A stretch of 64,000 nucleotides of DNA from NCBI GenBank assembly GCA_021741245.1, contig JAIOYF010000007.1, positions 1-64,000 on the forward strand, read 5' to 3'. Numbering within the stretch: the first letter of the stretch is position 1; every line of letters begins with the position of its first letter. Both the position numbers and the translations under genes were made by a program. The notes below the pieces were generated by a model. The model was not told where the DNA came from and ran no database searches. It saw nothing but the letters and a program-made list of their open reading frames with translations. Source of the stretch: Paracoccaceae bacterium. GTDB lineage: Bacteria; Pseudomonadota; Alphaproteobacteria; Rhodobacterales; Rhodobacteraceae. This document shows, piece after piece, positions 343 through 5,265 of the stretch.

Positions 343-1641
343 TCATGCGGCCTGCTCCCGCGGCGGTGCTCGTGTGCGCGGCGTGTGCCCGCGCCGGAAG
401 ATCTCGATGATCCGCATCGGCGCACCGCAACAGGGGCATGGTTCGCGCAGGGTGGGCGGGACGGACTCGACAGCCGCTTCGGGGGGCGTCACCGGTTGTG
501 TTGCCCCAAGCAGGGTCCGGATCTTCGCGATGTTTGCCCTGCGACTGGCGCTTGCCAGCAGGCCATAGTGTCGAATGCGGTGGAAACCCTCGGGCAGGAC
601 ATGGATCAGGAACCGGCGGATGAACTCATCGGTGGCCAGCCGCATGACCTTTTGCCCCCTCTCGTGGTTTGCAGACAAACCACTGCCGGGCAACGGATCG
701 CCGGGCTTGATGCGATAGTCTTTCCAGCGGAAGGCGACGGTTTGGGCGTCGGCGCTGACCAAGCGGGCGTTCGAGATCGCCACGCGGTGGGTGTAACGGC
801 TGAGATAGGCCAGCACCGCCTCGGGGCCGCCGAAGGGAGGTTTGGCGTCGTGTCGAAGACGCGCCTGCGGCACGATGACCACCCATTCGGATTTGCGGAA
901 CGGGGCCAACCAAGCAGTGAAGCAGGCGGGGTCCGCAAGGCCCATCAGATCGCCGAAGAAGGCGAGATCCCCGGCGCGGTGCAACGCGAGAAGCCCTTCA
1001 AGAAACAGGCGCAGGAACAGCCGCGACAGGACCTGCACATGCAGGAAGAAGCCTGACCTGCAGGCGATCCAGCGGCTGCCGTCGGGCGATAAACCACCAC
1101 CGGGGACGATCATGTGGATGTGGGGATGGTGGGTCAGCGCCGAACCCCAGGTGTGCAGCACCGCCGTCATGCCGACCCTGGCACCGAGACGCTTGGGATC
1201 GGCGGCGAGGGTCATCACTGTCTCGGCAGTGGCACGAAACAGCAGGTCATAGACCGACTTCTTGTTCCAGAACGCGATCTGCGCGATCTCGGCCGGCAGG
1301 GTAAAGACGACGTGGAAATATTCCACCGGCAGCAGGTCCTCGGCGCGCGCTGCCATCCAGTCACGGGCCGCCGGTCCTTGGCACTTCGGGCAGTGGCGGT
1401 TCTTGCAGGAATTGTAGGCGATGTGATGGTGGCCACATTTGGCGCAACCGGCCACATGCCCGCCGAGAGCTTCGGTCCGGCAGGCTTCGATGGCCGACAT
1501 CACTTTGAGCTGGGTCAGGCTGACATGCCCCGTTGCCCGGCAGGCGAATGCATGCATTCGCCGAGAGGGGGCATTGGCCTGCCGCCACGCAGGGCCATGG
1601 GCACGGAAGATGTCAGCCAGTTCCAGCGACGGGCGAGGCAC
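343..1641 (-). CDS. IS91 family (HUH) transposase
   Basis: This is a 432-residue rolling-circle transposase. An N-terminal zinc-binding region has cysteines at about residues 66-87 (CAKCG then NRHCPKC). The HUH metal motif HPHIH is at residues 172-176, and the YLSRYTHR block at about 279-286 carries the candidate catalytic tyrosine. The conserved tail FIRRFLIHVLPEGFHRIRHY follows. Family members carry no residues equivalent to 316-329 (PLPGSGLSANHERG); this is one of the 39-bp hairpin insertions described separately. Residues 256-265 are probably a second short insertion. The gene starts 13 bases after the stop of the ancestral integrase, so the two formed one unit. It is still open end to end. 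Whether it remains active with the two insertions is unknown. Confidence 0.93.
   Translation of the reverse strand: MPRPSLELADIFRAHGPAWRQANAPSRRMHAFACRATGHVSLTQLKVMSAIEACRTEALGGHVAGCAKCGHHHIAYNSCKNRHCPKCQGPAARDWMAARAEDLLPVEYFHVVFTLPAEIAQIAFWNKKSVYDLLFRATAETVMTLAADPKRLGARVGMTAVLHTWGSALTHHPHIHMIVPGGGLSPDGSRWIACRSGFFLHVQVLSRLFLRLFLEGLLALHRAGDLAFFGDLMGLADPACFTAWLAPFRKSEWVVIVPQARLRHDAKPPFGGPEAVLAYLSRYTHRVAISNARLVSADAQTVAFRWKDYRIKPGDPLPGSGLSANHERGQKVMRLATDEFIRRFLIHVLPEGFHRIRHYGLLASASRRANIAKIRTLLGATQPVTPPEAAVESVPPTLREPCPCCGAPMRIIEIFRRGHTPRTRAPPREQAA
657..695 (-). repeat. 39-bp palindromic insertion, copy 1 (in IS91 transposase)
   Basis: Read on the minus strand, this begins CGTTGCCCGGCA and ends GAGAGGG. 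An 8-bp perfect stem (664-671 with 676-683, GTGGTTTG/CAAACCAC) encloses a 4-base loop. Removing exactly 39 bases joins a GAT CGG CAA AAG reading, giving D-R-Q-K, which fits the family sequence. Same family as the copies at 4174, 4608, 4089 and 1729. Confidence 0.85.
847..876 (-). repeat. Probable 30-bp hairpin insertion in IS91 transposase
   Basis: This stretch encodes the ten residues IVPQARLRHD between EWVV and AKPPFGGPEAVL. As I recall the family, these blocks are nearly adjacent (about one aromatic residue between). An imperfect stem pairs CGTG at 849-852 with CACG at 871-874 and extends inward with mismatches. It does not share the flanks of the 39-bp family. The boundaries are an estimate. 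Confidence 0.45.
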
Positions 1642-1728
1642 GCCCGGCGCCGGTCACTCCGGACTGCGCTTAACGGCCCGGTCTTGCAGCTTCGTCAGCA
1701 TCCCGTACGGGCTGACCGTGTCGCGGAT

Positions 1729-1769
1729 CCATTGCCCGGCAGGGTCATGCGCAGCATGATCCCGAGAGG
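1729..1769 (+). repeat. 41-bp palindromic insertion, copy 4 (in integrase)
   Basis: The plus strand reads CCATTGCCCGGCA, then a 9-bp stem with one bulged base (GGGTCATGC at 1742-1750 with GCATGATCCC at 1754-1763), then GAGAGG. The flanks match the 39-bp family but the stem sequence differs. On the minus strand, removing it joins ACC directly to ATC CGC GAC ACG, restoring the family ending TKTIRDTVSPYGMLTKL; with it the tail is out of frame. Confidence 0.8.
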
Positions 1770-2319
1770 GGTCTTGGTCGCGACATGGGTATACTGTGCC
1801 GTGGTCGAAAGCTTCGCATGGCCAAGCAGGACCTGGATCACACGGACGTCGGTGTTTGCCTCAAGCAGGTGCGTCGCAAAACTGTGGCGCAGGGTGTGCA
1901 CAGTGGCAGGCTTTCCGACACCGGCCATGTTCTTGGCCGACATGAACGCCCGGTGCAGTTGCCGCGGAGAGATCGGATTGATCTTGGGCTTGCCCGGGAA
2001 CAGCCATCCCTCGGGCCGTGCCTCGCGCCAGTAGGTCCGTAACAGCTCCAGCAGGCTGGGTGAGAGCATCACCTTGCGGTCCTTCTGGCCCTTGCCCTGT
2101 TCGACATGGATCAGCATCCGGTCGCTGTCGATATCACTCACCTTGAGACTGCACACCTCAGCGGAGCGCAGGCCGGCGCCATACGAAATGCTGAGCGCGG
2201 CACGATACTTCAGCCCCGGTCCCGGTGCCGCCATCAGGATGTCTGAGACCTCCTCGACGCTGAACACGACCGGCAGCCGCCGCGGCTCGGTCCGGAACTG
2301 CATGAAACGCGTTCAGCGG

Positions 2320-2344
2320 GAAAATGATCCCCCGGATCATTTTC
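2320..2344. repeat. Perfect 11-bp inverted repeat splitting the integrase
   Basis: Arms GAAAATGATCC (2320-2330) and GGATCATTTTC (2334-2344) enclose a 3-base spacer. The insertion, about 45 bases including flanks, keeps the integrase frame but brings two TGA codons, one inside the palindrome and one just after it. Its sequence is unrelated to the 39-bp family. Confidence 0.85.
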
Positions 2345-2583
2345 TGGACCGCCTCACCCCCTCGCGTCCGCAGGTCATGCCAAAGAAGAACCTCAGCGCC
2401 ACGATCCGGGCATTGAAGGTCGACGGCGTGACTCCGGCATCGGTCATGTGCAGTTGATAAGAACGCAATTCTTCCGACGTTGCCGTATCGGGTGATCGTC
2501 TCAAGAAGATCGCAAAATCCTTGATGGCTCGGATATGCGCCTGCTGGGCCTTCTCGCCCATGCCACGGATACGCATGTCCGTT

Positions 2584-2608
2584 CGCCATGGGCCTTGGAC
2601 CCGTGGCG
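2584..2608. repeat. Hairpin insertion near the integrase N-terminus
   Basis: CGCCATGGG (2584-2592) pairs with CCCGTGGCG (2600-2608), with one G-T pair and a 7-base loop. It lies between MKEEKTTPLRQRM and DMRIRGMGEKAQQ, which are in different frames here (offset of 1 mod 3) although they are contiguous in related integrases. An insertion of about 40 bases explains the shift. Confidence 0.6.
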
Positions 2609-2848
2609 GCCTCATGGCTCACCATCCGCTGACGCAGCGGGGTGGTCTTCTCCTCCTTCATCGAAACCTCCTGTCTGACGGGTGGGAAAACACCAATCGT
2701 CAGCCCGGAACAGCCTCAAGCAAAGTACAACGCGAAATGGATGCTGAACGCCGGCCATCGGCGCCATTGCCGCGAAGCGGCTTGGTCCATGGGCCGTTTC
2801 CACCACATCCGGAACTCGTTGCCTTCAACCCTCTGATCCCTGACCCCG

Positions 2849-2875
2849 TCCACGACAGACCAACGATGTCGTGGA
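2849..2875. promoter_or_regulatory. 9-bp inverted repeat upstream of serine recombinase
   Basis: TCCACGACA (2849-2857) and TGTCGTGGA (2867-2875) are perfect inverted arms separated by 9 bases. They end one base before the GGAGG ribosome-binding site of the recombinase gene. This could be an operator or recombinase binding site, or an RNA hairpin that occludes the ribosome-binding site; the sequence does not decide. Confidence 0.55.
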
Positions 2876-2887
2876 TGGAGGATGCCG

Positions 2888-3565
2888 ATGACGGACTATG
2901 TTGTCTACTACCGCGTGTCGACCGAGCGTCAGGGAAGGTCAGGACTTGGCCTTGAGGCGCAACGGGCGATGGTCGAGGCGTTCCTTCGACCCGGCGATAC
3001 CGTGATCGACCAGTTCACCGAAATCCAATTGGGGAAGAAGGATGATCGCGTCAAGCTGTGGAAGGCGATCAACCTCGTCAAGAAGACTCGCTCGAAGCTG
3101 CTGATCCCCACGCTGGACCGGTTTTCGAGGAAGGTCTCGTTTATCTCGGGGATCATCGATCAGGGCGTTGAGCTGGTCGTCTGCGAACATCCGAACGTCA
3201 ATACGTTCTTCCTCCACCTTCTGGCCTGCTTTGCCGAGGAAGAACGCCGACAGATTTCAGAACGGACCAAAGCCGCGCTGACAGCGGCCAAAAACCGGGG
3301 GACAGCCCTTGGCCTGAATACTCACCAACTCGCAGCGACACGGCGACTGGAACGCCGGAAATTCGCGCTGGATTGCGCCGATACGTTGATGATGGCCGTG
3401 GCCGAGGCAGGATCGATTTCGGCGGCGGCCAGATGGCTCAACGATAGGAAGGTGCCAACCGCCACTGGTGGCCGATGGCACCCTCAGACCGTCAAGAACT
3501 ATATCGATGTGATACAGACCGATCCCGCGTCACGATTGACGGCGGGATCCAGCCTTGACGGCTGA
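2888..3565 (+). CDS. Serine recombinase (resolvase/invertase family)
   Basis: A 225-residue site-specific recombinase. The N-terminal catalytic domain has the nucleophile serine in YYRVSTERQG (about residue 11), the DRFSRK arginine motif at about 77-82 and the helix E region ERTKAALTAAKNRG. A C-terminal helix-turn-helix-like part follows (SISAAARWLNDRKVPTATGG). The start was set at 2888, not 2882, because the GGAGG at 2877-2881 is 6 bases from this ATG and would touch the earlier one. It is the only integration/excision gene of the cluster that looks intact. Its 3' end overlaps the 3' end of an opposing small gene split by an insertion sequence. Its substrate is unknown. Confidence 0.88.
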   Translation: MTDYVVYYRVSTERQGRSGLGLEAQRAMVEAFLRPGDTVIDQFTEIQLGKKDDRVKLWKAINLVKKTRSKLLIPTLDRFSRKVSFISGIIDQGVELVVCEHPNVNTFFLHLLACFAEEERRQISERTKAALTAAKNRGTALGLNTHQLAATRRLERRKFALDCADTLMMAVAEAGSISAAARWLNDRKVPTATGGRWHPQTVKNYIDVIQTDPASRLTAGSSLDG

Positions 3566-4088
3566 TGATTGCCGATTGATCGCTTCGATCAGCTGAAGCC
3601 GCTTGCAGTTCAGCTTCGCCTTCTTCGGCCCCTCTCCGGCATTGTTGCAGAACTCTGGCGATGTAGGATTCACATTGTGAATCCATGTGGCTAGACGGTC
3701 CGCATGAGCAAGCCATCACCCGCCCGCTACCGCACGACGAACTGGTCCAGCTACAGCGCTTCCCTGAGGAAGCGTGGTTCTTTGCTGATCTGGCTGGACA
3801 AGGAGACGACCTGGCTCGCGCCACCTGACGGCAGCCCTGCGGTGTTCTCGGATGCCGCGATCCAGTTCTGCCTGACCATCAAGGTTCTGTACAAGCTGCC
3901 GCTGCGACAAACGACCAGGATGGTGGCCAGCCTGCTCAAGATGGCCGCCCTGAACTGGGCGGTGCCGGACTATACGACCTTGTGCCGGCGGCAAAAGACA
4001 TTGGCCGTCCAGATCCCGTATCGGCGCGCCGATGGCCCCTTGAACCTGCTTGTGGACAGCACCGGCATCAAGTTCCTTGGCGATGGCG

Positions 4089-4131
4089 CCCTCTCGGCAG
4101 ATTTGCCCTGCAAATCGCCTGCCGGGTAATA
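4089..4131 (-). repeat. 43-bp palindromic insertion, copy 5 (frameshifting, in IS903 transposase)
   Basis: The plus strand starts CCCTCTCG and ends CTGCCGGGTAATA, the inverse of the family flanks. The stem is GATTTGC (4100-4106) with GCAAATC (4110-4116), extended by two pairs past a bulged A. Removal joins GGCG to AATGGCAAG, restoring GDGEWQARK. The insertion shifts the frame by +1 and brings a TAA stop at 4127-4129. Confidence 0.85.
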
Positions 4132-4173
4132 AATGGCAAGCGCGCAAGCACGGTGTCCAGGGGCGTCGTCAAT

Positions 4174-4212
4174 CGTTGCCCGGCAACGGTTTGCTTGCAA
4201 ACCGTGATAGGG
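4174..4212 (+). repeat. 39-bp palindromic insertion, copy 2 (in-frame, IS903 transposase)
   Basis: It begins CGTTGCCCGGCA and ends GATAGGG; the 8-bp stem ACGGTTTG (4186-4193)/CAAACCGT (4198-4205) closes a 4-base loop. It encodes SLPGNGLLANRDRG in the transposase. Deleting 39 bases recreates CAA TGG CGC AAG, giving RRQWRKVHLAMD, the expected family sequence. Confidence 0.88.
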
Positions 4213-4415
4213 GGCGCAAGGTGCATCTGGCCATGGACACGGCCACGTCTGACATCAGGGCGGTGGAGTTTACCCCCAGCAGCGATGGTGACAGCCCTGT
4301 GCTGCCAGAACTGCTGGACCAGATCCCCGAAGGCGAAGAGATCGGCACGGTGACCGCCGACGGTGCCTATGACAGCCGCCGCTGCCACACCGCCATCATT
4401 GACCGGCAGGCCACT

Positions 4416-4452
4416 AAGACGTCGGGCATTCTCTCGAACCAGTGGCGTTCAT
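4416..4452. repeat. 37-bp insertion in IS903 transposase, weak hairpin
   Basis: This separates DRQAT (frame 2) from ALHPIRKNARPWKED (frame 3). GGGCAT (4424-4429) pairs with ATGCCC (4451-4456), and GAAC (4436-4439) with GTTC (4447-4450). A 37-base insertion is what the frame change requires. The sequence is unrelated to the 39-bp family, and the boundaries are inferred from the protein join. Confidence 0.6.
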
Positions 4453-4607
4453 GCCCTCCACCCGATCCGCAAGAACGCGCGGCCTTGGAAAGAGGACTGC
4501 CCGGCTGCAATCGCGCGAAACGAAGCCCTGCGCGCCACCCGGCACTATGGCAGGGCGTTCTGGAAGCACTGGACGGGATACCACGCCCGCAGCCGGATCG
4601 AAGCGAA

Positions 4608-4646
4608 CCCTTTCATGGTTTGGAGGCAAACCATTGGCGGGCAACG
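4608..4646 (-). repeat. 39-bp palindromic insertion, copy 3 (in-frame, splits DDE signature)
   Basis: The minus strand begins CGTTGCCCGCCA and ends GAAAGGG. The stem is ATGGTTTG (4615-4622)/CAAACCAT (4627-4634). It adds 13 codons directly after the catalytic Glu-Ala. Removal rejoins AA to G as a Lys codon and gives EAKMRCLK, restoring the six-residue Glu-to-Lys spacing of IS5-type transposases. It is inverted relative to copy 2 in the same gene. Confidence 0.88.
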
Positions 4647-4965
4647 GATGCGGTGCCTCAAGGCCTTCGGTGAGCGCATCGCCGCAAGACACCCCGTCAG
4701 CCAAACCGCCGAAATCCAGATCCGTGTCGCCCTCATGAACCGCTTCTCGGCGCTCGGCACGGCCGAGATCATTCGCGTGGGCTGGACATGATCATGGGGT
4801 AAGGGGACATCTTGCCTCAAGCGTGACTTACGCAACAACGCCCCCCTCTTCCATCAAGCCGAGAACGCCTTCGATGGAGGAAAGCTGCGCTTTCAAATGC
4901 GATGGCTCCCTCTGGACCAATGCGTCGATGGAAGGTTCTGATACAAATTCCTTGAAACCCATCAT

Positions 4966-5189: not shown

Positions 5190-5265
5190 TGGTGCCCGGA
5201 GCCGGAATCGAACCAGCGACACGCGGATTTTCAATCCGCTGCTCTACCAACTGAGCTATCCGGGC
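5190..5265 (-). tRNA. tRNA-Phe (GAA)
   Basis: A 76-base tRNA on the minus strand. The acceptor stem is GCCCGGA with its partner, the D arm contains AGCTCAGTTGGTAGAGC, the anticodon loop reads TTGAAAA with anticodon GAA, the T arm is GGTTCGATTCC and the terminal CCA is encoded. It lies downstream of yacG on the same strand. The mobile genes at 343-4842 start about 350 bases beyond its 3' end. Confidence 0.97.

Follow-up and report, generated by a model that had tools for sequence, protein, structure and literature searches.

What are the palindromes of about 40 bp that interrupt unrelated mobile genes at the start of a contig from a Paracoccaceae bacterium, and how could they have come to lie there? 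The stretch analysed, called the window here, comprises 64,000 nt of contig JAIOYF010000007.1, from a genome of 4.2 Mb. Mobile genes are clustered over 4 kb at its start: an IS91-type HUH transposase, a tyrosine integrase, a serine recombinase and an IS5-like DDE transposase (IS, insertion sequence). An earlier, sequence-only reading had claimed five copies of one hairpin element in three of these genes. All five are present where it placed them and a sixth, at 1533-1571, had been missed. This family is called F1 here; four further insertions belong to three other palindromic families, F2, F3 and F4. We take F1, together with F2, F3 and F4, to be non-autonomous miniature palindromic mobile elements that prefer the interior of transposase and integrase genes, a reading to which we assign a probability of roughly 0.5.

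Clean insertions in unrelated mobile genes

The homologues used for alignment were copies on plasmids of other Rhodobacterales. Nine of the window insertions (27-43 bp) are missing from both homologues used per gene, and the insert at 4174 is filled in two homologues but not in a third, L424, where none of the four DDE-gene insertions is present and an 8-bp deletion lies near the end. Elsewhere in the genome, one 2.3-kb IS21 istA-istB pair holds seven insertions from three families, again missing from both homologues. Each of the ten window and seven IS21 insertions is therefore missing from at least one homologue, and these empty homologues rule out that the segments are a native part of the transposases. 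The junctions are clean, and a target duplication was read at none of the 17 insertion junctions aligned to empty homologues. The remaining indels relative to the two homologues used per gene are multiples of three, and the window genes have no internal stop once the insertion columns are ignored. Most inserts in the window integrase, the DDE gene and the IS21 pair shift the frame or add a stop.

A scan of the window for both flanks (at most 4 mismatches) around a stem of at least 6 bp returned only the six F1 copies. The same scan on five mononucleotide shuffles (one strand each) returned none. Across the whole genome the F1 pattern matched 8 times and its reversed form, used as a control, 0 times. 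A chance origin was rejected, since six F1 fall within 4 kb while, at the same threshold, the remaining 60 kb of the window and both controls hold none. We also considered, and set aside, F1 as an excision scar, or as the halves of a larger element. A right motif followed every one of the 71 left motifs inspected, a weak test given that most loci had been fetched by both motifs; right motifs without a clear left motif numbered 4 of 128.

Structure and target of the elements

The F1 consensus is C[A/G]TTGCCCGGCA...GAGAGGG, with the architecture CCC-GGCA-stem-loop-GAGA-GGG; when folded, an inner hairpin is set off by a GGCA/GAGA internal loop from the outer CCC/GGG stem. This fold was seen in three copies folded as RNA and, as DNA, in four of the window's six; the copies at 1730 and 4089 have a different minimum-energy fold as DNA. 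Total length ranges from 33 to 45 bp, the inner stem varying in length and sequence, and 40 of 146 lengths are divisible by three, so that there is no frame preference. In the covariation alignment, which was fitted to the model, 94% of 916 cells are paired, all nine stem pairs change on both sides, and the score is 0.49 against 0.15 for shuffled and at most 0.06 for slid alignments. F1 is a structured element. Its stems are diverse (124 distinct in 137 elements), and copying of the stem from the target was rejected, there being no excess of likeness to the flanks. Of 38 GGC-class F1 of 41, 43 or 45 bp, 35 have a T just before the last GCC, and this base is bulged in the one such copy that was folded; in the GGG class the same base is T in 11 of 13. 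The target preference is CATC^G, with CATC before the insert, G after it and little beyond (143 flanks).

F2 has the layout stem-CTCGAACC-RTGGCG-stem, F3 the motif CAGAAAANGATCCGGGGGATCNTTTTCC, and F4, at 25-27 bp, the layout GGCGTCRTGCC-AGGCAYGC; inserts similar to F4, of the same 25-27 bp, occur in L185, L207 and L147. Folded as DNA, the ten window inserts have z-scores between -0.84 (the F4 at 851-877, weak) and -4.93.

Census and habitat

A covariance model of F1 found 16 copies in the window genome, the next match (E = 0.08) lying in a gene read as glycosidase-like; F2 has 11 matches there and F3 has 8. Transposase or integrase genes hold 16 of 16 F1, 11 of 11 F2 and 6 of 8 F3. Some of these genes were assigned from Pfam searches of fragments (in one set of ten, three had no match), others by aligning them with annotated homologues, and the remainder by reading the frames. 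In L240 (G000 contig 5), at ~2164-3003, intergenic F3-like hairpins recur with repeated flanks, resembling an ordinary cluster of repetitive extragenic palindromic (REP) sequences.

F1 is present in 7 of 16 genomes of the genus and, among 295 genomes sampled across the family, in 122 (E <= 1e-4), scored on at most 20 candidates per genome; six rich genomes recounted with 150 candidates held 20, 22, 26, 35, 44 and 46 copies. A pattern scan of GTDB genomes gave at least 118 loci, and 74 of the 77 examined hold 114 F1 matches. Among these 74 loci in other genomes, 47 were assigned to transposases, 25 stayed unassigned, and 2 lie within or next to other genes; 42 of the 47 transposase assignments were made through clusters with at least one tested member carrying a transposase domain, and one of the rest is below the curated cut-off. 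The F1 hosts are IS91, IS21, IS3-, IS5-, IS66-, IS110- and Mutator-type transposases and the integrase. An IS3-type copy from Phaeobacter (G090, L310-L313) holds five F1 and one F3, and has two sister copies with a 131-bp internal deletion.

The sequence-only reading had proposed a dispersed mobile family, in both orientations, in unrelated transposase and integrase genes, and had suggested a search of the genome and of related Rhodobacterales with alignment to empty orthologues. That search brought further copies and clean insertions, and the proposal is upheld across Rhodobacterales, with empty homologues to compare against. The segments might have been present in all relatives, or nowhere else; 24 of 30 IS21 loci (some of them partial) are without such an insert, and the family occurs widely.

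Recurrence at the same sites

The same site is often filled in homologous genes of different genomes. The elements of several same-site pairs (L061/L115, L124/L095, L112/L088 and L096/L159) resemble each other no more closely than equal-length members drawn at random, and some pairs hold elements of different length. F2 occupies one istA site in three diverged IS21 copies. Near-identical same-site elements were found in L167, L179 and the window, in L046/L172, and within genomes in L159/L163 and L146/L149; from their sequences these look inherited.

In Dinoroseobacter shibae, a 919-bp IS5-like element (G050 contig 5, L271-L273) contains two F1 and a further stop and is present in three identical copies. 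It has thus reached three places as a filled IS, and by our reading TA is apparently duplicated at them. Element-free relatives of this IS, at 73-75% identity, share its right end.

The gene cluster of the window

The frame of the IS91 transposase is open despite insertions of 39, 39 and 27 bp. The integrase is split by insertions of 41, 42 and 37 bp and has no other frameshift or stop in the alignment and in the insertion-free frame; the same holds for the DDE transposase, with four insertions (43, 39, 37 and 39 bp), over the part compared. No F1 lies in the serine recombinase gene, and no F2 or F3 motif was found there. A tRNA gene at 5193-5265, about 400 bases past the transposase cluster, may mark an integration site.

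Table 1. Mobile genes at the start of the window and the palindromic insertions within them
Feature	Position	Strand	Remarks
IS91-family HUH (Y2) transposase gene	343..1641	-	Pfam Y2_Tnp 1.5e-60, Zn_Tnp_IS91 6.1e-31; alignment to annotated IS91 transposases L177, L178
F1, 39 bp	657..695	-	IS91 transposase, sense, in frame; site also filled in L042, L147
F4, 27 bp, CGTC-like tag and short hairpin	851..877	-	IS91 transposase; insertion relative to L177, L178
F1, 39 bp	1533..1571	+	IS91 transposase, antisense; not in the earlier list
Tyrosine integrase gene, partner of IS91 transposase	1654..2661	-	Phage_integrase 2.2e-40 (fragment); ends read from sequence
F1, 41 bp	1730..1770	+	Integrase, antisense, frameshifting; top model score in genome
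F3, 42 bp (CAGAAAATGATCCGGGGGATCATTTTCC core)	2311..2352	-	Integrase; fold z -4.93
F2, 37 bp	2581..2617	+	Integrase, frameshifting
Serine recombinase gene	2882-3565		Member of the window cluster
IS5-like DDE transposase gene	3704..4791	+	DDE_Tnp_1_5 5e-42, DDE_Tnp_1 2.2e-11 (fragments)
F1, 43 bp	4089..4131	-	DDE transposase, frameshifting
F1, 39 bp	4174..4212	+	DDE transposase, sense, in frame; filled in L167, L179, L180; empty in L424
F2, 37 bp	4420..4456	+	DDE transposase, frameshifting
F1, 39 bp	4608..4646	-	DDE transposase, antisense

Mode of insertion

The elements insert cleanly, in both orientations, in any frame, at recurrent sites and several to a gene. We propose that they are moved as folded single strands by a hairpin-reading enzyme acting in trans, which would most likely be an HUH-type single-strand transposase or an undescribed recombinase. 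Such an enzyme fits the bulged T of the hairpin, the shortness of the 5' target, the lack of target duplication and the diversity of stems within fixed outer parts. On this proposal, most insertions would leave the host transposase disabled or weakened, a small number in frame may be tolerated as 13-residue loops, and the elements would then spread along with their host IS. The choice of transposase genes is not accounted for by the short CATC^G motif.

A number of observations weigh against this proposal. A mobilising enzyme was looked for beside the elements and not found. The window genome lacks Y1_Tnp, as do three F1-bearing genomes assembled in few contigs, G028, G050 and G090; the domain is found in 5 of 17 genomes with at least 10 F1 and in 1 of 16 with none; at the eight Y1 loci fetched there was no F1-F3 motif. 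A mobiliser of the RAYT (REP-associated tyrosine transposase) or IS200 type was accordingly rejected as not found with the elements. The habitat is also not exclusive: two of the eight F3 matches, on contig 5, are intergenic, one F1 lies in or beside a RelE-type gene (L026 1343-1389) and another by an ornithine cyclodeaminase gene, and 2.0 Mb of G028 has one F1 outside an evident transposase. The outer parts of F1 are nearly invariant, partly by construction, since most loci were fetched by exact flanks. The covariation alignment includes the copies used to build the model, and for one of the five measures taken on it, the count of pairs in which both sides change, 30 of 500 shuffles did as well. 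Finally, the low ratio of nonsynonymous to synonymous substitution rates (dN/dS) of filled genes fits disablement only if the insertions are recent.

Alternative explanations

Insertion might instead be random, copies in host genes being purged and copies in IS being seen as the IS multiply and travel. Filled IS are multi-copy in several genomes and the filled D. shibae IS has moved, as this would predict; nevertheless we regard it as unlikely, given the seven inserts in one IS21 and the rest of the 4.2-Mb genome, where F1 and F2 are only in transposase and integrase genes, and F3 in such genes plus one intergenic stretch. Purging does not account for the absence of F1 and F2 from the intergenic DNA of the window genome, and the recounted rich genomes hold no more than 46 F1; the others were scored on 20 candidates only, which leaves some room for a host peppered with F1. 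The parallel with Rickettsia palindromic elements (RPEs), drawn by the sequence-only reading, would have the elements kept for a tolerated in-frame peptide. It had read the peptide LP(G/A)-x-GL-x-x-N-x-x-RG from three 39-mers in both transposases; the sense 39-mers at 657 and 4174 do encode LPGxGLxxNxxRG, whereas those at 1533 and 4608 are in the opposite orientation and give other peptides. The 657 and 4174 sites look like in-frame insertions kept in several homologues: inserts at the former are 39, 39 and 42 bp (window, L042, L147), all multiples of three, and at the latter 39 bp in the window, L167, L179 and, by alignment, L180. However, the L180 element has a different stem and two stops, just 40 of 146 F1 lengths are divisible by three, most of the integrase, DDE and IS21 inserts shift the frame or add a stop, and F1 is mainly in transposase genes, not host genes. 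As a general account the parallel is contradicted and very improbable, and it applies to a minority of sites at most. Slightly more improbable still is that the host defends itself by inserting short hairpins that mark or kill foreign transposase genes. Unrelated transposase families are hit, often several times per gene, with no other frameshifts in the window and IS21 copies, which would suit such a system; against it stand the patchy content within the genus (7 of 16 genomes) and stems and families too diverse for one payload. We know of no candidate system for defence by hairpin insertion, and none was searched for.

A different possibility is that the filled genes still work, the inserts being removed from the RNA or skipped by the ribosome, as a counterpart of mini-introns or of the byps of yeast mitochondria, and the rest of the gene being kept clean by selection. 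The window genes are without any other frameshift or stop, and dN/dS of the filled window genes against empty homologues is low, at 0.075-0.152: 0.132-0.152 for the IS91 transposase (0.141 among empty homologues), 0.075-0.125 for the DDE transposase (0.088) and 0.079-0.112 for the integrase, the last being above the 0.049 among empty ones. Two istA copies of the window genome share four insertions (39 bp with an in-frame TGA, 39, 41 and 38 bp) and differ at 0 of 157 insertion positions against 177 of 1709 others (by codon position 23, 9 and 142 of 511; dS 0.538, dN 0.026, ratio 0.049), with differences coming within 2-4 bp of one insert; gene conversion is unlikely here, differences coming within 2-10 bp of two inserts. 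This would suit skipping, yet 0 of 157 is too conserved for freely varying stems, and recent arrival fits at least as well. Similarly, a 1385-bp IS3-type element (rve domain) of the few-contig genome G028 is present in at least six copies, 98.6-99.9% identical, and its orfB, with four F1 (38, 40, 38 and 38 bp), is intact only when these are left out. Its polymorphism across six copies is not biased to synonymous changes (2 of 7 at third positions in orfB), however, and the 40- and 38-bp inserts jointly keep the frame open, so that only the first and last must break it. A search for a helper copy, in 2.0 Mb (46% of the chromosome), found two partial copies and no full one, whether filled or empty, and is uninformative. 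Third-position bias is seen in the same-site pairs L061/L115, L096/L106, L041/L122 and L179/window, and is not clear in L159/L163 or in the right flank of L046/L172. A single RNA signal could not act for every element, since they lie in both orientations. The stop-bearing D. shibae element, in three identical copies, indicates that a filled IS can spread with a dead gene, and small frameshifts or a stop occur in filled L147, L185, L194, L204 and L207 and in the Phaeobacter IS3-type copy, as they do in several empty IS21 copies. We consider the skipping of inserts in functional transposases unlikely. Its specific form seems a shade less likely still, namely that F1-type hairpins act as mini-introns or bypass elements in bacteria, with exact removal or skipping at C[A/G]TTGCCC...GAGAGGG (F2 and F3 at their own boundaries). 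That genes with up to seven out-of-frame, stop-bearing hairpins would still give functional protein is doubtful to the same degree. We favour insertion that is mostly disabling over skipping.

Relation to known repeats

The substrates of IS200/IS605 transposases and the attC sites of integrons are single-strand hairpins with an extrahelical T, a short 5' target and no target duplication. F1 may resemble them in these features; our elements are without an internal gene, and no such enzyme was found with them. The yeast byps are hairpin inserts of ~40 nt at many sites in coding genes; the present inserts differ in occurring in both orientations, and the case for bypass here is indirect. The target-site duplication of miniature inverted-repeat transposable elements (MITEs) was not seen at the 17 junctions.

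REPs of the GTAG and CGTC superfamilies, as described by Di Nocera et al. (2013, PMC3733652), are hairpins of 20-40 bp with heterogeneous stems within a family and a tag at one end. The same authors describe the CGTC group as mostly alphaproteobacterial and without a dedicated transposase, REPs as mostly intergenic, and the CGTC elements found with other transposase genes as few, fortuitous associations. F1 is like REPs in its short hairpins and heterogeneous stems, and unlike them in having neither a GTAG nor a CGTC tag and in lying inside transposase genes. In particular, there is no GTAG at the foot of the F1 hairpin, as a GTAG REP or REPIN would have, nor was the link to a RAYT (Y1) seen. 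In a CGTC REP the tag is followed by a stem of 8-9 bp; F4 does have GCGTC with a short hairpin, which F1-F3 lack, and may be a CGTC-type REP.

The first-described RPEs, according to the review PMC10969869, are ~150 bp long and are fused in frame within metabolic genes unrelated to one another. Expression in vivo has been reported for proteins that carry RPE-1. Palindromes inside unrelated protein-coding genes are common to both, and F1 differs in ignoring the frame and in lying mainly in transposases. The small dispersed repeats of cyanobacteria, as mentioned in PMC2884548, are also very small and possibly mobile, though they are ~20 bp and tandemly repeated. A search of the window against Rfam at gathering scores matched RNase P and a tRNA only, with no match to the elements, and no description of them was found in the literature searched, most subscription-journal papers being outside it.

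Transposase genes look like a new habitat for miniature mobile DNA. Small palindromic repeats are mostly known between genes, and here several unrelated families share transposase genes as their main habitat. If the targeting is true, the elements would be a parasite of parasites, or the genomes' way to disarm insertion sequences; if skipping is true, they would represent a new bacterial route to expressing interrupted genes. Both readings can be tested in culturable strains.

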